Shown here piece after piece: positions 7,442 to 22,147 of a stretch of 64,000 nt of DNA. The DNA is taken from contig JAKJBW010000009.1 of the NCBI GenBank assembly GCA_022706785.1, positions 1 to 64,000 of the forward strand, given 5' to 3'. A program made the translations under genes and the position numbers. Source of the DNA: Bacillota bacterium (GTDB lineage Bacteria; Bacillota; Clostridia; UBA1381; UMGS1253). How positions within the stretch are numbered: position 1 is the stretch's first letter; every line of letters starts with the position of its first letter. Under the pieces are notes generated by a model. The model saw only the letters and a list, made by a program, of their open reading frames with translations. It did no database searches and was not told the DNA's origin.

Positions 7442-8692
7442 TCAAAACCGTTCTGTTTTATACCACTCCAGCTCTTTTCTGCCTATCAAATCCTTAGCGT
7501 ACCCGTAAAGGCCCATTACCGCCACAACCAACCATAGCTGGCTGTATATAAAATACATGATCATGACTAAAAAGATGTTGTCAGGCCCCGACTCGCCCTT
7601 TTCGTTGATCAGCGTCACCGATACCGAAAGCACAAATGTGACGTAAGCCAGCGCCCATAGAATGATGCTGCTTCCTTCAAGGTTTAGGTGCAACAGGTTT
7701 AAGGCGCCAAGAAAAAAGCAAATATCAGAAATCAGTATCGCCGACAAAAAGAGAATATATATGGACAGGAAATATATCACGTCAAATTTTATGATTTGCT
7801 TTTCCCTGCTTAAAAGCAGCCTGACGTTTTTAATGAGCACATAAAAATTACCTTTTGCCCAGCGCGTCCGCTGCTTGACCCAAACGGGGATGGTTTGCGG
7901 CTCCTGCTCCCAGGTGACCGCCGAGGGCAAGTATTTTATTTTATAGCCCATTTGGTATATCCTGAAGCTGATTTCGGTATCCTCCGCAATGGCATGAATA
8001 TCCCAGCCGCCAATCCTTTCAACGATATCCCTTCTCATAATAAAATTGGTGCCCGGAATGGTGCAAAGCTTAAAGATCTGCCAACGGCCTGCCTGCGCCA
8101 TCCACTGAAAGGTAAGCGTTTCTATGTTGATAAATCTGGTCAGCAGATTCACATCACGGTTTCTTGTCCGAAATTTTCCGATCACCGCGCCTAAGCTGTC
8201 GTCATTTTGCAGCGTGTGTACCAAATGACGCAAAGCCTTTTTCTCAGGCGTGTTATCCGCATCATAAATTGAGATATATTCCCCCACGCTGGCCCCAAAA
8301 CCGATATTAAGCGCGTTAGACTTCCCTTTTCCGCCTGTTTTATTGTCTGTATTGATTATTTTGAGCATACGCTCAGGATTTTTCTTTTGTATATCCGCCA
8401 AAATAGCGGCGCTGTTATCGCTTGAATTATCATTGACCACAATGATCTCATACCGGTCATGCGGATATTCGAAATTCAAAAGTGCTTGCAGCGTTTTGCC
8501 AATGACCTTTTGTTCATTATGCGAAGGCACCAAAACGGATACAAAAGGATAGGTTTGCAAAACGTCGGGTATCGCATTTTTCAGTGATTTCAAATAATAC
8601 CGGTGCCCGGCTATGGTAAGAATGAGATTCATAATGAGCATTGCCCATATCACAAGTATGGCGTATAAAAACAAACAATCCGCAAGCCCCAA
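7442..8692 (-). CDS. Membrane glycosyltransferase family 2 (YdaM/BcsA-like)
   Basis: A 416-residue processive GT2. An N-terminal membrane helix precedes the GT-A domain: VNDNSSD (D88), YDADN (D144, D146), EDTEISFR (E237-D238) and QRTRW (274-278), the D, DxD, ED and QxxRW set of cellulose, hyaluronan and PNAG synthases. Three C-terminal helices follow. There is no PilZ domain, so c-di-GMP sensing, if any, must come from another subunit, plausibly the degenerate GGDEF protein at 10081. The start is TTG 8692; the best ribosome site AAGGAG is rather far (13 nt). The polymer made is not predictable from sequence. Confidence 0.9.
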   Translation of the reverse strand: MGLADCLFLYAILVIWAMLIMNLILTIAGHRYYLKSLKNAIPDVLQTYPFVSVLVPSHNEQKVIGKTLQALLNFEYPHDRYEIIVVNDNSSDNSAAILADIQKKNPERMLKIINTDNKTGGKGKSNALNIGFGASVGEYISIYDADNTPEKKALRHLVHTLQNDDSLGAVIGKFRTRNRDVNLLTRFINIETLTFQWMAQAGRWQIFKLCTIPGTNFIMRRDIVERIGGWDIHAIAEDTEISFRIYQMGYKIKYLPSAVTWEQEPQTIPVWVKQRTRWAKGNFYVLIKNVRLLLSREKQIIKFDVIYFLSIYILFLSAILISDICFFLGALNLLHLNLEGSSIILWALAYVTFVLSVSVTLINEKGESGPDNIFLVMIMYFIYSQLWLVVAVMGLYGYAKDLIGRKELEWYKTERF

Positions 8693-13978: not shown

Positions 13979-14776
13979 TCAATCAAGCAAGCTTTCCTTC
14001 AAAGCTTTTGTAAACGCTGCTACCGATTGCAGCTTTTCTTTTTCCGTTCTGCCCTGCGCCACTCTTTGAACGACAGCTGAGCCTACAATAACACCATCGC
14101 CGTATTGTCTTAACTGATGCGATTGTTCAGGTGAAGATATACCAAAACCTAAGCATTTTGGAACATCTGAAAACGCATTCAAGGTGTGGAACATCTTATC
14201 AAAATCCGTCTGAAAATCCGTCCGCATACCCGTGACTCCCAGAGAAGACACGCAATATAAAAAGCCTTTCGCCTGCTTTGTAATGCGTTCCATCCTCTGC
14301 CCGCAAGAGGTTGGCGCCACCATGCTGATTTGATACACGCCGTATTTTTCCGTCAGTTCCTTTAGTTCAGCGCTTTCCTCAAAAGGCAGGTCGGGAACAA
14401 TCAGTCCGTCTACCCCGCTGCCAGCACACGCTTTAAAAAAAGCTTCCTCACCGAAATGCAAAATACTGTTATAATACATCAAAAAAACCAGCGGGATTTG
14501 GGTTTTTTCACGAAGCGTCCGTACCATATCAAAAATTTTTACAAGTGTTGCTCCGCCTGCTAACGCTCGCAAATTTGCTTCCTGTATAACCGGTCCCTCC
14601 GCGATCGGATCGGAAAACGGGATCCCCAGCTCCACAATGTCTGCCCCGCTCTGCTCCATCCGTAAAACCAGCTCGGCGGTAGTCAAAAGATCAGGATCGC
14701 CCGCGGTAATAAACGTTATCAGCGCTTTTTGCTTCTGCTTGCGCAGCATACGGAACTTTTCGTCAATCCTGTTCAC
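13979..14776 (-). CDS. trpA: Tryptophan synthase alpha chain
   Basis: A 265-residue TIM barrel that cleaves indole-3-glycerol phosphate to indole and glyceraldehyde 3-phosphate, passing indole to TrpB. Seen motifs: [26 protein letters not shown] (catalytic Glu and Asp), [24 protein letters not shown] and [10 protein letters not shown] choose GTG 14776 (MNRIDEKF) because GGGGGTGG sits six bases upstream and this is the usual family start; the frame is open to 14794. It overlaps trpB by 14 nt and is the last trp gene. Confidence 0.96.
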
Positions 14777-15953
14777 CAATTTCCACCCCCACATATTTCG
14801 CTATCGAATGTACGTCCTTATCTCCCCGGCCGGACAGGCAAATGACCAATATGTCTTCCCTGTTCATAGCCGGCGCTGTTTTCATTGCCTGCGCTACGGC
14901 ATGCGCGCTTTCTATGGCGGGAATAATGCCTTCCGTTACGGCAAGATACTGGAACGCTTCCACGGCTTCCCGGTCTGTGACCGCCAAATACTCTGCACGC
15001 CCTGTGCGGGCAAGATGTGCATGCTCCGGCCCAACACCCGGATAATCCAATCCGGCCGATATGGAATAGACCGGCATAATGCCGCCGTCATTATCCTGCA
15101 AAAATAAGGATTTCATACCGTGCAGCACGCCCTTTTCTCCTTTTGTCAGGGTTGCCGCATGGTACGGCGTATCTGTTCCCTTTCCGCCGGCTTCCGCACC
15201 GATGAGCCGAACCTCCGGATGGGGAATGAATTCGTAAAAGGCGCCCATGGCGTTGCTTCCACCCCCTACACAGGCGACGACCACATCGGGAAGCCTGCCC
15301 TCTGTGCGGAGCATCTGTTCTTTGATTTCCTTTCCGATCACACTTTGAAAATCCCGAACAATCGTAGGATAAGGATGAGGCCCCATAGTGGAACCCAGTA
15401 CATAAAAGGTATCATCCGCCCTTGCAGCCCACGCCCTCATGGCCTCGTTACAGGCATCCTTAAGCGTTCTCGTGCCGCTCTTTACAGGCGTGACCTTAGC
15501 GCCCAGCAGATTCATACGAAAAACATTGAGTTCTTGCCTTTTGGTATCCTCCTCACCCATAAAGACTTCGCATGCCATACCAAATAAGGCGGCGCCGGTT
15601 GCAGTTGCCACGCCGTGCTGTCCCGCGCCCGTCTCCGCGATTACCTTTGTTTTCCCCATTCTTCTGGCAAGCAGCAGCTGGCCTAAAACATTGTTGATTT
15701 TATGGGCGCCGGTATGATTCAAGTCCTCACGCTTTAAATAAATTTTTGCGCCGCCGAGGTCCTCTGTCATTCTTTTTGCATAATATAAAAGAGACGGCCG
15801 GTTGGCGTATTCATTCAGATAACATGCCAATTCCTTCACAAAGCCAGGGTCTTTTATAGCGCTTCCATACGCTTTCTCCAGTTCCTCCAACGCCGCTATA
15901 AGGGTTTCGGGCGCATAGCGTCCGCCGAATTCTCCAAACCTTCCACGACTCAT
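14763..15953 (-). CDS. trpB: Tryptophan synthase beta chain
   Basis: A 396-residue PLP enzyme that condenses indole with serine. It shows [15 protein letters not shown] at the N-terminus, [15 protein letters not shown] (the PLP lysine), [18 protein letters not shown] and a late SGRGDKD. The frame is open to 16091 and into trpF, but ATG 15953 fits the family start and follows AAAGGATG. This leaves a gap of about 110 bases after trpF, unusual in this otherwise tightly overlapping operon. Confidence 0.97.
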
Positions 15954-16062
15954 TGTGATGACCATCCTTTCGCACATACCGGGATGTTTTGCCTGATTTG
16001 ATTGATCAAATCCGTGCCGTCCATTGCGGCGCGAAAAGGTATGACTCCCGGTTTGAAAAAAT

Positions 16063-16677
16063 CTATTGTTCAAGCTTTGCACCCCGTACAATTTCTATCA
16101 GCCTTTTGATTTTACTTTCGTCTTTCAGTCCGTTTGTTTCCGCTCCGCTGCTTATGTCCACCATGTATGGCGCGAAGCGGACCGCTACTTCTTTTATATT
16201 GCCCTCATTAAGCCCGCCTGCCAGAATCAGGGCGGCGGTATCCACGCCGCTCAACCAATCCCAGCAGAATGGACTCCCGCTTCCGCCGCAGCCTGCGTCC
16301 AGTAAAACACGATGCGCACAGCAGCCATCGACACGCTCCAGTGCGCTTTTATTTTCTATACAAACAGCTTTCCATACTTCGCCGTCAAAGCGCGCCTTAA
16401 TATCTAAAATATCCTGTTGTGTTTCCGCTCCATGCAGCTGGATCACATGAAGCCCTGTTTCACGTGCAATTTTTATCATCTCTTCAGTTTGCGCATTGAC
16501 GAAAACCCCGACCGCGCGGATATGAGGATGAAGCGCTTGCACCAGAACTTTTGCCTGCCCGACCGTCACCCTGCGTTTGCTTTTGGCAAATACAAATCCC
16601 GCATAATCAGGGCGGTACCGGTTGACCGCATAAATATCCTCTATGCCGGTCAGGCCACAGATCTTAATCTTCATCAT
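16063..16677 (-). CDS. trpF: Phosphoribosylanthranilate isomerase
   Basis: A 204-residue TIM barrel that isomerises N-(5'-phosphoribosyl)anthranilate to CdRP. Motifs: [11 protein letters not shown] (catalytic Cys), [36 protein letters not shown] and [11 protein letters not shown]. It overlaps trpC by 14 nt. Two adjacent ATG codons (16677 and 16674) share the ribosome site GGGGGATC. Confidence 0.96.
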
Positions 16678-17455
16678 TTGTGATCCCCCGCAATTTCAAA
16701 ACCGACCTTTGGATATCGTCTGACCGCATAAACAGCTCGCCTATCAATGCCGCATGGGCGCCGCAGCCTCTCACATATGCCAAATCTTCAAAGCTCCGGA
16801 TGCCGCTCTCACTCACCACAACTTTATCCTTAGGCATCCCTTTTACAAGCCGTGCGGTAGTGGAAATATCTTCGGCAAAGGTATGCAGGCTGCGGTTATT
16901 GATGCCGATCAGACCAAAGGAAAGGGACAATACCCGCTCCAATTCCGTTTCGTCGTGCACCTCCGCAAGACACGCCATACGCAAGCTGTGCGCCAGCCCG
17001 GAAAATAATTTGAGCTGCGCATCGTTTAGAAGCGCCGCTATAAGCAAAATACAGTCCGCGCCCAGAAGATACGCCTCGTAGATTTGGTATTCGTCTATAA
17101 TAAAATCCTTGCGCAGCAGCGGAAGGGGCGAGATGGCCCTGATGTCGGATAAATATTGGCTGTTTCCTTGAAAATAGTGTTGCTCTGTCAGGACAGACAG
17201 CGCTTGTACCGGCGAAGATAAATATGCCTTTGTAATGTCAATATGGTCAAAGTTCCGGCGGATCAGCCCCTTGGACGGGGACGCCTTTTTCACCTCCGCA
17301 ATGATTGAGATGTCCTTACATACAAGCGCGTCGGCAAATGGCAAAGGCATCCTTGCCGCCTGTTTTGTTTTTTCCTGCAACAGGGATAACGGGTATTTTT
17401 GTTTCAGCAGCTCCAATTCCTGCGCTTTTTTAGCGGCGATTTTTTCTAAAATCAT
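16664..17455 (-). CDS. trpC: Indole-3-glycerol phosphate synthase
   Basis: A 263-residue TIM barrel closing the indole ring. It shows SIIAEVKKASPSKGLIR, LSVLTEQHYFQGN, LLRKDFIIDEYQIYEA (catalytic Lys and Glu), IGINNRSL and VVSESGI. I use ATG 17455 (MILEKI), which gives an ATGA overlap with the trpD stop; a codon at 17461 is also possible. Separate trpC and trpF, not fused as in enterobacteria. Confidence 0.96.
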   Translation of the reverse strand: MILEKIAAKKAQELELLKQKYPLSLLQEKTKQAARMPLPFADALVCKDISIIAEVKKASPSKGLIRRNFDHIDITKAYLSSPVQALSVLTEQHYFQGNSQYLSDIRAISPLPLLRKDFIIDEYQIYEAYLLGADCILLIAALLNDAQLKLFSGLAHSLRMACLAEVHDETELERVLSLSFGLIGINNRSLHTFAEDISTTARLVKGMPKDKVVVSESGIRSFEDLAYVRGCGAHAALIGELFMRSDDIQRSVLKLRGITNDED

Positions 17456-18489
17456 AGGCATACATCGCTCTTTTCGGCCAATTGATTGGACAGACAGATC
17501 AATTGCTCTAATTTTCCCATTGCCCTTTTGCGGTCAATGGACTCTTCGGCCAACAGAATGCCATCGCGGATAGTTTTCGCTTTTCCGGCACAATAGATGG
17601 CCGCCCCGGCATTGAGCAGTACGATATCCCGTTTGGGGCCTGTGACGCCATTTAAAATATCCAGGGTGTCCCGCCTGTTTTCTTTTGCCGTTCCGCCCGT
17701 GATCTCATGCTTTTGGGCGCGGGCAAACCCATACATTTCCGGGGTAACCGTATCATCCGTCACACGGCCGTCCTTAATTTCGGAGATTTTTGTTTCTCCC
17801 AGATTAGAAATCTCATCCATGCCGTTGTCCACCCCGCTCACGACCATCCCCCGCCGTATACCCATATGAAGCATGGCGTGCGCCAAGGGATTTACAAGAC
17901 CGGGGTCAAATACGCCAATCAACTGACAGGCCGCGTCAGACGGGTTGGAAATAGGCCCTAAAATATTGAATATCGAACGCACGCCCAGCTCCGACCTTAC
18001 CTGAGACGCGCTTTTCATAAACCTGTGAAAGGTCCGGGCAAACATAAATCCGATCCCGATTTCTTCCACGCACCGCTGTGTCATCTCCGGCTCAAGCATG
18101 ATGTTCACACCCAGCTCTTCCAGCAGATCCGCACTGCCGCTTTTGCTGGAAATTGCACGGTTCCCATGTTTGGCGATGGGCACGCCCGCTCCCGCAATCA
18201 CAAATGCGGCAGTTGTGGATATGTTAAACGTGTTGGTCCCATCGCCGCCCGTACCCACACAGTCAATATAGCCGGGCACCTTAGGACGAATGTGGGAAGC
18301 CTTCTCCTTCATGGTAAGCGCGCAGCCGGTGATTTCATCAATGGTTTCGCCTTTTAAGCGAAGCGCGATCAGAAACGCACTGATCTGAGCCGGCGTAGCG
18401 CCTCCGTCAAGAACCTTATCCATGGCATAACGGGCTTCTTCTACCGTCAAATGCTGGCCCGACACTAATTTTCCGATAATCGTTTTCAT
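17452..18489 (-). CDS. trpD: Anthranilate phosphoribosyltransferase
   Basis: A 345-residue enzyme joining anthranilate and PRPP. Motifs: CVGTGGDGTNTFNISTTAAFV (in parts, the PRPP loop), KHGNRAISSKSGSADLLEELG, and FNILGPISNP. ATG 18489 (MKTIIGKLVSGQ) matches the family start; an in-frame codon at 18513 adds eight basic residues. Just upstream are three GAG triplets at 5-nt spacing (18504-18516) that partly overlap the ribosome site, a weak echo of the TRAP site before trpE. Confidence 0.96.
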   Translation of the reverse strand: MKTIIGKLVSGQHLTVEEARYAMDKVLDGGATPAQISAFLIALRLKGETIDEITGCALTMKEKASHIRPKVPGYIDCVGTGGDGTNTFNISTTAAFVIAGAGVPIAKHGNRAISSKSGSADLLEELGVNIMLEPEMTQRCVEEIGIGFMFARTFHRFMKSASQVRSELGVRSIFNILGPISNPSDAACQLIGVFDPGLVNPLAHAMLHMGIRRGMVVSGVDNGMDEISNLGETKISEIKDGRVTDDTVTPEMYGFARAQKHEITGGTAKENRRDTLDILNGVTGPKRDIVLLNAGAAIYCAGKAKTIRDGILLAEESIDRKRAMGKLEQLICLSNQLAEKSDVCL

Positions 18490-18535
18490 ATATTTTGCCG
18501 CCTCTCTTCTCATCTCATTTTTTTGGAAAATCTCA

Positions 18536-19102
18536 TTACAACTTCAAAAAGTTGCGGATTATTTTCATTCCGTCAGGCGTGAGCACCGATTCGGGGTGAA
18601 ACTGTATCCCGAAGGTGGGATGTGTTTTGTGCATCAGCCCCATAACACATCCGTCATGACTTGAAGCGATTTCCTTTAGCACATCCGGAAGTCCTTCCCT
18701 CGACACTGCCAGCGAATGGTATCTGCCAACCTCTGTTTGCCGGTTCAAACCGTGAAAGATGGGCTTTGTGTTGTCTAACAAAACGGTGTCCGCTTTTCCA
18801 TGCATGAGGACAGGCGCTTTTATGACCTTTCCTCCGAAAGCTTCGCCGATAGCCTGGTGACCTAAACACACGCCCAAAATAGGGATTTTGCCGCTGTATT
18901 TTTGAATCAGGTCCGTTAAGATCCCCGCCGAGCAAGGGTATCCCGGCCCGGGCGACAGGATGATATGGGTGGGTGACAGGGCTGCTATCTCCTCCACAGT
19001 GATTTTGTCATTTCGTGCCACCATCACATCCTCTTGCAGTAAACCGACGTATTGATAGAGGTTATAGGTGAAGGAATCATAATTATCCAGAATGAAAATC
19101 AT
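18536..19102 (-). CDS. trpG: Anthranilate synthase glutamine amidotransferase component
   Basis: A 188-residue class I amidotransferase supplying ammonia to TrpE. It has DNYDSFTYNL, SPGPGYP, the nucleophile motif GVCLGHQAIGEAFGG and the FHPES His-Glu pair. It overlaps trpE by an ATGA quartet, so the two subunits are translationally coupled. It may also serve p-aminobenzoate synthesis, since Bacillus uses one protein for both; that is not decidable here. Confidence 0.96.
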   Translation of the reverse strand: MIFILDNYDSFTYNLYQYVGLLQEDVMVARNDKITVEEIAALSPTHIILSPGPGYPCSAGILTDLIQKYSGKIPILGVCLGHQAIGEAFGGKVIKAPVLMHGKADTVLLDNTKPIFHGLNRQTEVGRYHSLAVSREGLPDVLKEIASSHDGCVMGLMHKTHPTFGIQFHPESVLTPDGMKIIRNFLKL

Positions 19103-20574
19103 ACAAAATCACCTGCCCTCTGAATCGCCTGCACCATAGCGGCGGCTTTATTTACCGTTTCCTGATATTCCTTTTGCGGCACGGAGTCATACACGATCCC
19201 TCCGCCTGCCTGTATATAGGCTTTGTTATCCTTAAATATCGCGGTTCGTATGGTAATACACGAGTCCAGGCTGCCGCTAAAACCGATATAACCGATTGCA
19301 CCCCCGTAACAGCCCCGCTTGACTGTTTCCAATTCATCAATTATCTGCATCGCGCGCACCTTTGGCGCTCCCGATAAGGTTCCGGCCGGGAGCACGGCTT
19401 TAAGCGCGTCAAAGACCGATTGGCCTTTCCTCAGCTTCCCCTTCACATCCGAGGTCATGTGCATCACATGGGAAAACTTTTGAATGTATTTGAATCTGGA
19501 TACCCTTACCGTGCCGAACGCACTCACTTTGCCGATATCGTTTCGTCCCAGATCCACCAGCATGGTATGCTCTGCGTTTTCTTTGGGATCGGAAAGAAGC
19601 TCCTGCTCCAATCTGCTGTCCTCATCCGGCGTTTTGCCCCGTAGTTTAGTGCCTGCGATAGGACTGGTCTGCACAATGCCATTTTCCACTCTCACCAGCA
19701 TTTCGGGAGAAGCGCCCGCCAGCTGGTATGAGCCAAAATTCAGATAAAACAAATAAGGCGAAGGATTGATCAGACGAATGGAACGGTAAACACAGAAAGG
19801 ATCCGCTGTCGTCTCCGTTTCAAAACGCTGGGATAAAACGACTTGAAAAATATCTCCGTTCACAATGTATTCTTTGGCCCGTTCCACCATTTCGCAAAAC
19901 TGCTCCCGGGTCATATTGCTTTTCGGCTGTAAAACCGGTATGGGCCGGTCCTTCTTCGGCTTTTGAATCAGCGTATCCTGCGAAAGCTCGTCTTTGAGTT
20001 TTTTCAGACGCCGGCGAGCCTCATGATATTGCGCTTCTAAATCGCCTTCAGTTTGCATATTGACGATGACAATCACTTTTTGCTTTGCATGGTCAAACAC
20101 CACAAGCTCATCCATAAACATAAAATTCAGATCGGGCAGGTCCAAAGTATCCGGCGGTGTGTTGGGCAAAAACTCCGTAAGCCTGATCACATCGTACCCA
20201 AAATGCCCCACCGCGCCGCCCGCAAACTGCGGGATATTGGGCAAAACAGGAGAACGGTAGCGTTCGCACAGCGCTTGTAAACGCTCCAAAGGGTCGCCGG
20301 TAAAGGTTTCCTCCCTGCCATCCCGGTATATAATTTTTACTTGAGCGTCTTTGCTTTGAAAAACGAGAAAGGGATTGCGCCCGATAAAGGAGTACCTCGC
20401 CATTTCAGGCGTCCCCTCGGAAGATTCCAGCAGGAAGCAGAAGCTATCCTGCTTCAGCTGCTTAAAAATGGAAATCGGGGTGTCCATATCGGCGGGAAAT
20501 TCACAGCTGACCGGAATCATGTTGTGGGATTCCGCCAACTGACAGATGAGCTCGTAGCTGGGATAAAAAGACAT
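19099..20574 (-). CDS. trpE: Anthranilate synthase component I
   Basis: A 491-residue chorismate-binding enzyme, the first committed step to tryptophan. The N-terminal LLESSEG (48-54) is the motif for feedback binding of tryptophan. The catalytic part shows GDIFQVVLSQRF, SPYLFYL, SPEMLVR, PIAGTKLRGKTPDED, HTMLVDLGRND, GTLSGAPK and QAGGGIVYDS. The ribosome site AGGAGG (20587-20582) lies in one arm of a leader hairpin and the leader has a TRAP-type binding site, so both enzyme activity and expression seem to respond to tryptophan. Confidence 0.97.
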   Translation of the reverse strand: MSFYPSYELICQLAESHNMIPVSCEFPADMDTPISIFKQLKQDSFCFLLESSEGTPEMARYSFIGRNPFLVFQSKDAQVKIIYRDGREETFTGDPLERLQALCERYRSPVLPNIPQFAGGAVGHFGYDVIRLTEFLPNTPPDTLDLPDLNFMFMDELVVFDHAKQKVIVIVNMQTEGDLEAQYHEARRRLKKLKDELSQDTLIQKPKKDRPIPVLQPKSNMTREQFCEMVERAKEYIVNGDIFQVVLSQRFETETTADPFCVYRSIRLINPSPYLFYLNFGSYQLAGASPEMLVRVENGIVQTSPIAGTKLRGKTPDEDSRLEQELLSDPKENAEHTMLVDLGRNDIGKVSAFGTVRVSRFKYIQKFSHVMHMTSDVKGKLRKGQSVFDALKAVLPAGTLSGAPKVRAMQIIDELETVKRGCYGGAIGYIGFSGSLDSCITIRTAIFKDNKAYIQAGGGIVYDSVPQKEYQETVNKAAAMVQAIQRAGDFV

Positions 20575-20581
20575 AAAAAAG

Positions 20582-20604
20582 CCTCCTAAATATAAATTTA
20601 AGAG
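20582..20604 (-). promoter_or_regulatory. Ribosome-site sequestering hairpin and competing pairing in the trpE leader
   Basis: CTCTTAAAT (20604-20596) can pair with ATTTAGGAG (20591-20583) across a TTAT loop, nine pairs with one G-U, hiding the trpE ribosome site AGGAGG. The same region, TCTTAAATT (20603-20595), is also an exact complement of AATTTAAGA (20696-20688) at the edge of the TRAP site. The two pairings exclude each other. Confidence 0.6.
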
Positions 20605-20648
20605 ACATGAAATCCAGAATCAATTTTTAATCGGGACTATTTCACCCA

Positions 20649-20691
20649 CTCATCTAAGCTCCACTAAGCTCTGCTAATCTCATCTCATCTT
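20649..20691 (-). promoter_or_regulatory. TRAP (MtrB) binding site in the trp leader
   Basis: Read on the minus strand, triplets start every five bases without exception: AAG, GAG, GAG, TAG, GAG, TAG, GAG, TAG, GAG, with two-base spacers. On the plus strand these begin at 20689, 20684, 20679, 20674, 20669, 20664, 20659, 20654 and 20649. Eight of nine are GAG or UAG, the target of the 11-subunit TRAP ring of Bacillus. The site lies about 15 nt from the predicted RNA start. No mtrB gene is in this window. Confidence 0.88.
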
Positions 20692-20712
20692 AAATTATTT
20701 TATTTATATATT

Positions 20713-20740
20713 ATTATACGCAAAAAAGCTTCTTTGTCAA
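20713..20740 (-). promoter_or_regulatory. Promoter of the trp operon
   Basis: Perfect sigma-A boxes on the minus strand: TTGACA (20740-20735), 16-nt spacer, TATAAT (20718-20713). RNA would start near 20706, giving a leader of about 130 nt. Confidence 0.85.
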
Positions 20741-20898
20741 TGCTTTTTGATAATCTTTTTAAAAAGTCAGACCAAAAACGGGAAAAGAAACGATCCGCCC
20801 ATGAACGGCGTGCTCTTGTGTTTTGATTTTTTAGCTGCGTTAATGACAATAAGATATATCTTTACCAAGGCGACGTCAGTATCAGGATCCGATGTGCT

Positions 20899-20931
20899 GG
20901 CATGCAGAGTCAAATCCTGTCGTACGCACCA
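20899..20931 (+). other. tRNA 3'-end fragment (tRNA-Arg-like)
   Basis: A T-arm-like stretch with AGTCAAATCCTGTC, then CGTACGCACCA with a CCA end. The matching 5' acceptor strand (GCGTACG) is not found upstream, so this is a remnant. It is directly followed by a terminator, as with the fragments at 13886 and 22240. The rest of 20745-20898 shows nothing I can name. Confidence 0.45.
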
Positions 20932-20935
20932 GTCG

Positions 20936-20980
20936 GAGTGTTGTTACAGCATTTGAGATGTTGTAACAACACTCTTTTTT
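20936..20980 (+). terminator. Rho-independent terminator
   Basis: A 13-bp perfect stem, GAGTGTTGTTACA with TGTAACAACACTC, then six T residues. It reads on the plus strand, directly after the tRNA-like fragment, and has no intact gene upstream. Confidence 0.8.
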
Positions 20981-21061: not shown

Positions 21062-21706
21062 TTATCCTTTAGTCAGCATATCATAGCGTTTTTTAGAAGT
21101 ATGGTATCTTCTAAAATAATAATCCCATATAGCATGCTTTTCTTCTTCGCTTTCTGCTTTTTCTTCTAAAGTCTTGATAAGCTCTAACACTTGTTTATGA
21201 TAAAACCATTCATATGTGCGCTTTGCTTTCGCTTGCGTCATACGCAATTCTTTCGCTATTGTTACAAATGACGCTTTTTCAACCTCCCGCATTTCGATAA
21301 CACGGGCAATCGTTTTTTCGCTCAATTTGGGTTTGAATGGGGGCATATTCTTGATAAATTGTGTCGGCATACCCGTCTCCCCGTCCCTGTATTCGATTAA
21401 AATATCGTTATATCTCTTTTCCAAATACGCACAGGCATATCTCCGGTCTTGATAGCATTCATAAGCGTCATTATATACTTTTCTAACTTGTGAAGTGCTT
21501 TCATGCCCAAGCACTACCGCAATATGATTGATGTATAAGCGTATTTGCTTAAACTTTAGTTTGTGATACATTTGCGTTACTCTTGTAACCGATATTTCAA
21601 ACTCTTTTGCAATATCGGTAAATGTGTTGTCGTATTGGTCACGAAGCAACATAATCTCATATGCACGCTCATCCTGCTTTAGTTCGCTATATGGTATGTC
21701 TTTCAT
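21062..21706 (-). CDS. Protein with two sigma-70 region 4-like helix-turn-helix segments, function unknown
   Basis: A 214-residue, charged, soluble protein that I do not recognise by name. Two HTH-like segments repeat the same pattern: TFTDIAKEFEISVTRVTQMYHKLK (N-terminal, in parts) and SFVTIAKELRMTQAKAKRTYEWFY (about residues 140-165). Each resembles a sigma-70 region 4 or RNA polymerase sigma-like HTH. It is transcribed divergently from the Xre-type repressor gene at 21827, a layout common in mobile elements. It may be a transcription or recombination accessory factor of a decayed element. Start ATG 21706 follows a GGAGG-like site (AACGGAGG). Confidence 0.6.
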   Translation of the reverse strand: MKDIPYSELKQDERAYEIMLLRDQYDNTFTDIAKEFEISVTRVTQMYHKLKFKQIRLYINHIAVVLGHESTSQVRKVYNDAYECYQDRRYACAYLEKRYNDILIEYRDGETGMPTQFIKNMPPFKPKLSEKTIARVIEMREVEKASFVTIAKELRMTQAKAKRTYEWFYHKQVLELIKTLEEKAESEEEKHAIWDYYFRRYHTSKKRYDMLTKG

Positions 21707-21826
21707 AAAAAATCAAACCTCCGTTCATCTTATATAATAAATACCCGTTTTACCAATATTGATTATATCATTTACAGGTAACAAATGCAACAATTTGAGG
21801 TAAAATTTATTTGGGAGTGTGGTAAT

Positions 21827-22147
21827 ATGTTGCGTTTAAAAGAATTAAGAGAACAGCGGAGGCTTAATCAAGAAGGATTGGCCCTGAAACTTAATGTTTC
21901 TCAATCTACCATTAGCGCATATGAAATAGGTGAAAGAGTGCCGGATTTAGAAACCTTGATTGCTATTTCAAATTTCTTTAATGTTTCACTTGACTATCTT
22001 GCGGGCTTGTCTGATTTGAAACAGCAAATTAGGCAAAGCGATTTATCACCAAATGAGTTGGAGCATTTATACACATACCGACAGTTAAGTAATGCTGATA
22101 GAGAAAAGATAAGAGCATACATTGACGGTTTGCAAAGCAGGGCATAA
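21827..22147 (+). CDS. Xre-family helix-turn-helix repressor
   Basis: A 106-residue protein starting at ATG 21827 (MLRLKELREQRR); an upstream in-frame ATG at 21785 is less likely because GGGAG precedes the internal one. The HTH_3 domain (LNQEGLALKLNVSQSTISAYEIGERVPDLETLIAISNFFNVSLDYLAG, in parts) is the standard phage or ICE repressor fold, followed by a helical tail. It is divergent from the two-HTH protein. Probable role: repressor of a mobile element, of which little else remains here. Confidence 0.88.
   Translation: MLRLKELREQRRLNQEGLALKLNVSQSTISAYEIGERVPDLETLIAISNFFNVSLDYLAGLSDLKQQIRQSDLSPNELEHLYTYRQLSNADREKIRAYIDGLQSRA

Follow-up and report, generated by a model that had tools for sequence, protein, structure and literature searches.

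The leader of a complete trpEGDCFBA operon in the genome of a gut-type member of the class Clostridia (Bacillota bacterium, assembly GCA_022706785.1) is, judging by its sequence, very probably controlled by TRAP (MtrB), with nine evenly spaced triplets lying between a consensus promoter and trpE. Predicted folds further point, tentatively, to a single hairpin next to the trpE start codon that both terminates transcription and forms a lid over the trpE Shine–Dalgarno (SD) sequence. RNA binding by the protein, its dependence on tryptophan, binding as a ring, and the division of the effect between termination and translation are what we infer from these data. The system is of a known kind and no new class, but its clostridial setting, its nine triplets, the variable residue 58 of MtrB and, above all, the predicted fused hairpin make it a variant that merits testing. 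Coordinates refer to the window, the whole 64,000-nucleotide stretch of contig JAKJBW010000009.1 that was analysed, with features on the minus strand unless stated.

Array, promoter and operon

Read from 20691 to 20649, the putative TRAP-binding array (AAGATGAGATGAGATTAGCAGAGCTTAGTGGAGCTTAGATGAG) consists of the triplets AAG, GAG, GAG, TAG, GAG, TAG, GAG, TAG and GAG, separated by AT, AT, AT, CA, CT, TG, CT and AT; every spacer is thus 2 nt, the steps are exactly 5 nt, and eight of the nine triplets are perfect GAG or TAG, the first being AAG. The first-pass annotation had described nine triplets at 5-nt steps, eight of them GAG or UAG, which is confirmed here with the addition of the strand that it had omitted. 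Nine triplets in phase fall inside the range of 9–11 NAG triplets that a review gives for TRAP sites (PMC4347634). The perfect promoter described directly upstream is also found (20713..20740), with TTGACA (20740–20735), a 16-nt spacer and TATAAT (20718–20713) matching consensus at 12/12 positions; it ends 21 nt before the array, which itself lies 74 nt 5′ of trpE. Transcription is predicted, from promoter spacing only, to start at ~20706, placing the array onset ~15 nt further 3′. No Rfam family reached its gathering threshold anywhere in the 64-kb window, and no T-box was found in the leader.

That such an array would very seldom arise by chance, as had been claimed, is borne out by 100 Markov-1 simulated sequences of 64 kb each, in which the longest exact-step KAG run comprised two triplets in 72 sequences, three in 27 and four in one. 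A scan of the 2.03-Mb genome gave no second exact run of at least five KAG triplets, 0 matches to the reversed control pattern, and no KAG array with 3-nt spacers; two matches at two mismatches (C16:86131 and C30:74188) were rejected as lying in or against coding sequence.

Below the array the seven genes follow in the order given by the first reading, all on the minus strand: trpE (anthranilate synthase component I, 491 aa, 19099..20574; NCBIfam TIGR00564, 586 bits), trpG (glutamine amidotransferase, 188 aa, 18536..19102; TIGR00566), trpD (353 aa, 17452..18513; TIGR01245), trpC (265 aa, 16664..17461; NF001377), trpF (204 aa, 16063..16677), trpB (14763..16091; TIGR00263, residues 50–433) and trpA (271 aa, 13979..14794; TIGR00262). 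All score over the model cut-off except trpF, which matches TrpF models only, the best being NF002300 at 172.9 bits, below its cut-off of 212. The listed start of trpB probably lies too far upstream, conservation beginning at about residue 45–50.

Elsewhere, on the plus strand at 20906–20980, a tRNA-3′-end-like stretch ending in CACCA is followed by a long inverted repeat and a T run; ARAGORN calls no tRNA there, and a sigma-region-4-like gene and an HTH_3 gene lie nearby (21062–22147).

MtrB and a second array in the same genome

An mtrB gene, which the first-pass annotation had predicted and whose absence it had named as evidence against TRAP control, is present. The genome encodes a single MtrB (G000:C20:22088–22282; 120 bits, E 5.9e-35), scoring above the cut-offs of both PF02081 and the NCBIfam equivalog NF009724, and the translations of its neighbours resemble DNA polymerase III on one side and phosphofructokinase on the other. 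Only B. subtilis gave a match among 14 control genomes. The closest named MtrB belongs to Candidatus Aphodoplasma excrementigallinarum, of the class Clostridia (81% identity), and a matching MtrB stretch occurs in G003, a genome of the same family as that of the window, in agreement with the suggested clostridial origin. Of 502 candidate stretches scanned, 479 encode an MtrB relative, and those retained (80) come mostly from Clostridia, with some from Paenibacillus; by sequence match, MtrB is common across Clostridia.

The RNA contacts of TRAP are K37, K56 and R58 (PMC7430163), of which the MtrB of this genome has K37 and K56, with a His aligned to the Arg58 of B. subtilis. Position 58 is varied among 111 MtrBs (R 47, N 34, K 21, H 6, S 2, C 1), and Arg58 is therefore not general. 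The His of this protein, like the array's nine triplets in place of eleven, is a point against TRAP control, though many clostridial MtrBs vary at this residue. Across L001:1435–1704 and the 111 MtrB sequences, more than half carry a residue other than Arg at this position (Asn, Lys, His, Ser or Cys). T25, Q45, T47 and S51, which we take to be the tryptophan-pocket residues, are all present in the window genome's protein. A 53-residue B. subtilis query for rtpA (anti-TRAP), run with no positive control, had no match in the genome.

Allowing one mismatch, one further array was found genome-wide (C33:2148–2190, G000, L190, minus strand), its eight in-phase NAG triplets being CAG, TAG, GAG, TAG, AAG, GAG, GAG and TAG. 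The gene that follows is trpB2, which is TrpB-like and of the PRK12391 type (702 bits), and its leader contains a strong separate terminator, CGCAAUGCG..CGCAUUGCG followed by U6. In folds predicted for the first 130 nt, the unmasked array pairs into the terminator, which forms once the array is masked; in the 220-nt fold the terminator stem is present in both states, so that the trpB2 switch, too, would depend on co-transcriptional order. Two arrays, each preceding tryptophan synthesis genes, provide strong independent support for TRAP control.

Predicted leader folding and fused hairpin

The TRAP-leader reading of the first-pass annotation, sound as to array, mtrB and operon, had not covered how the operon is shut off, for which a hairpin fusing terminator and SD is a candidate. 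This 11-bp hairpin (GUCUCUUAAAU-UUAU-AUUUAGGAGGC, 20581..20606), identified by terminator scan and fold, is the sole terminator-like site in 20400–20800. Its stem contains the entire trpE SD (AGGAGG, 20582..20587, 7 nt before the AUG) and is followed immediately by a U6 tract (20575..20580) and then directly by the AUG, features that make it both terminator-like and SD-sequestering. Its energy is −10.7 to −11.9 kcal/mol; among shuffles of the upstream sequence that left SD and U6 unchanged, 0.5% were as stable. The 35-nt structure preceding trpE is the most stable among 40 long ORFs in the window, and trpE is the only one of the 12 most stable pre-start regions listed with a U-run before its ATG. 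The stem is rich in A–U and G–U pairs, with three G–C pairs according to the terminator scan.

A competing helix is predicted for the TRAP-free leader, in which a 5′ arm (AAUUUAAGAUGAGAUGAGAUU, 20676..20696, minimum free energy fold) overlapping the first array triplets pairs with a 3′ arm (GAUUUCAUGUCUCUUAAAUU, 20595..20614). This duplex has a predicted energy of −21.3 kcal/mol, equalled by 0.17% of shuffles, and in growing-chain folds it forms once ~104–112 nt of RNA have emerged, before the SD is transcribed. The SD hairpin takes its 5′ strand from the last part of the 3′ arm, and the two folds are therefore mutually exclusive: once the array is masked, as TRAP would mask it, the predicted hairpin probability is 0.99, against 0.14–0.34 unmasked. 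The whole-leader fold is only weakly better than shuffles (z −1.47). In the free fold the SD is not plainly accessible (P unpaired 0.07), since the first codons pair with it in a weak hairpin. The free-state helix needs AAUUUAAGA (20696–20688) in the transcript; omission of the first transcript nucleotides leaves the hairpin favoured even without TRAP, and the switch therefore depends on the exact transcription start and on co-transcriptional order.

Output layouts among relatives

Among 61 relatives, mtrB was found in 34 and an exact five-triplet array in 10, every one of these being among the mtrB carriers (P 0.0015). The gene is present in each of the 20 genomes whose TrpE falls in the window's clade, compared with 14 of 41 others (P 2e-7, kinship ignored). 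Relatives' arrays have 4–8 triplets and precede trpE, trpB2, a TrpX-like transporter protein or trpD.

Two trpE leaders from another family of the same order share the window's succession of hairpin with SD, U tract and AUG: that of G059 (GUCUUCUUC...GGAGGAGGC-U6-AUG, −11.1 kcal/mol) and that of G057 (GUCUUUUC...GAAGGAGGC-AU7-AUG, −5.0 kcal/mol). They differ from the window in stem and array sequences and in having eight triplets, and the G057 hairpin is weaker. Other trpE leaders of the order, including those of G047, G008, G046 and G028, resemble the window in an array placed after the promoter and before trpE, with mtrB present; they differ in having 4–7 triplets and a GUCUUUUUC...GAAAAAGGC-U-rich terminator that stands by itself, with the SD located further downstream and outside it. 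In the TRAP-type TrpE clade the window genome, G059 and G057 branch off first, the window's own row being a long branch with a weakly supported fork below it (83/25); later branches carry either a separate terminator or an array placed at the SD. Given this early branching, the compact switch with one hairpin as attenuator terminator and SD lid may represent an older form in this clostridial order.

The arrays preceding G010 trpE (L148) and G073 trpD (L167) lie 14 nt from the start codon or over the SD itself, an arrangement that suggests direct occlusion of the ribosome. Together with the separate terminator and the fused hairpin, this makes three outputs or more that the same array appears to drive within the order.

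A strict pattern for the fused layout matched, across 391 genomes of the class, the window and one site in G263 (L199) only, the latter being rejected as having neither a real array nor a trp gene. A looser, order-wide pattern found G059 and two G003 sites; matches in G030 and G041 were unrelated. At one G003 locus (L204, G003:C53 ~7989–8090, minus strand), an irregular array and promoter are accompanied by a fused hairpin, CCUCUGC..GCGGAGG-UGU7-AUG, ahead of an eight-residue ORF (MQIEFYRG) that is followed by the gene for a PaaK-like AMP-binding ligase; this could represent a tryptophan-repressed route from aryl acetates. No array was found at the window genome's homologues of this PaaK-like gene.

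Proposed mechanism and alternatives

Under ample tryptophan, a Trp-loaded MtrB ring would bind the nine-triplet array as it emerges from RNA polymerase, so that the first part of the array could no longer pair with nucleotides 20614–20595. Once freed, that strand would combine with the trpE SD region into the 11-bp hairpin ending in U6 before the AUG, which could release RNA polymerase and, on readthrough transcripts, would bar ribosomes from trpE. Without Trp-loaded TRAP, the array would pair first, since its partner strand is transcribed before the SD, disfavouring the hairpin and leaving the operon transcribed and translated. The translational block appears the surer of the two outputs, the stem having few G–C pairs.

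The strongest competitor, somewhat less probable than this dual role yet to be taken seriously, is that TRAP acts on translation only, through a hairpin that covers the SD and is too weak to terminate. The A–U- and G–U-rich stem with its three G–C pairs, the SD wholly inside it and the trpE start directly after it would all fit, as would the contrast with the strong separate terminator of the trpB2 leader in the same genome. A pure SD lid would, however, have no need of the U6 tract that abuts the hairpin without a gap, and a tract of U6–U7 is also kept in G059 and G057. Transcription attenuation only, with the SD overlap a side effect of a short leader, is improbable: most array-bearing relatives do have a separate terminator downstream of the array (L137, L139, L142, L146 and L150), but the stem here is unusually A–U rich for a sole terminator, and the readthrough transcript would have its SD buried anyway. 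Still less probable is repression mainly at RNA polymerase near the promoter with the hairpin unneeded, for which the array's position ~15 nt past the predicted start could speak, as could reports that B. subtilis TRAP acts on termination beyond the hairpin (PMC7430163, PMC11255114), since the pairing of the array with the SD-hairpin strand would then lack a purpose. A chance purine-rich repeat with no TRAP function has negligible probability, for although purine-rich sequence can mimic arrays (L169), the simulation and genome scan, the mtrB gene, the second array before trpB2 and the comparable arrays at the head of trp genes elsewhere in the order stand against it.

Comparison with Bacillus subtilis

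The dual role proposed for the single hairpin is divided in B. subtilis between two structures: a terminator that can form once TRAP is bound and, on transcripts that escape it, a hairpin 3′ of the TRAP site in which the trpE SD is concealed (PMC11255114). The two leaders share a (G/U)AG array with 2-nt spacers, an mtrB gene, competition between the array and a strand further downstream, and control through terminator and SD (PMC11255114, PMC7430163). They differ in triplet number (11 in B. subtilis, nine here), in output structure (a terminator and a separate SD hairpin as against the predicted single hairpin next to the AUG), and in MtrB residue 58 (Arg in B. subtilis, His here); trpG lies inside the operon of the window, unlike the trpEDCFBA arrangement of B. 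subtilis. No dedicated study of TRAP in Clostridia was found in the open-access literature. TRAP presence by species is marked in a figure legend of PMC2494555, and clostridial TRAP may therefore well have been noted before; the fused layout, too, may have been reported outside the open-access papers searched.

Probable TRAP and T-box control in the order

T-box-type trpE leaders were found in G003, G045, G020, G005 and G009 (L155–L159), being called by a GGTGGCACCGCG-type motif; L155 is without an Rfam T-box and has only 132 nt before trpE. These operons share gene, aim of control and order with that of the window, and G003 belongs to the window genome's family, but their leaders are of a tRNA-sensing kind and their TrpEs, ~47% identical to that of the window, fall into another, fully supported clade with mostly short branches that spans four families. 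In G003 the trpE is of the T-box type, but trpB2 still has a TRAP array. Within the order, TRAP and T-box have thus replaced one another in the control of trpE. The T-box operon probably moved between families, and the close similarity of these TrpEs across four families suggests horizontal spread of a T-box trpE in place of a TRAP-controlled one.

TRAP is known mostly from Bacillus, and this clostridial order supplies a set of natural variants of a single switch. They range over 4–9 triplets, three layouts of the output and different residues at position 58, so that triplet number, output and protein can be compared directly, in an order that also shows two unrelated tryptophan controls, TRAP and T-box, replacing each other.
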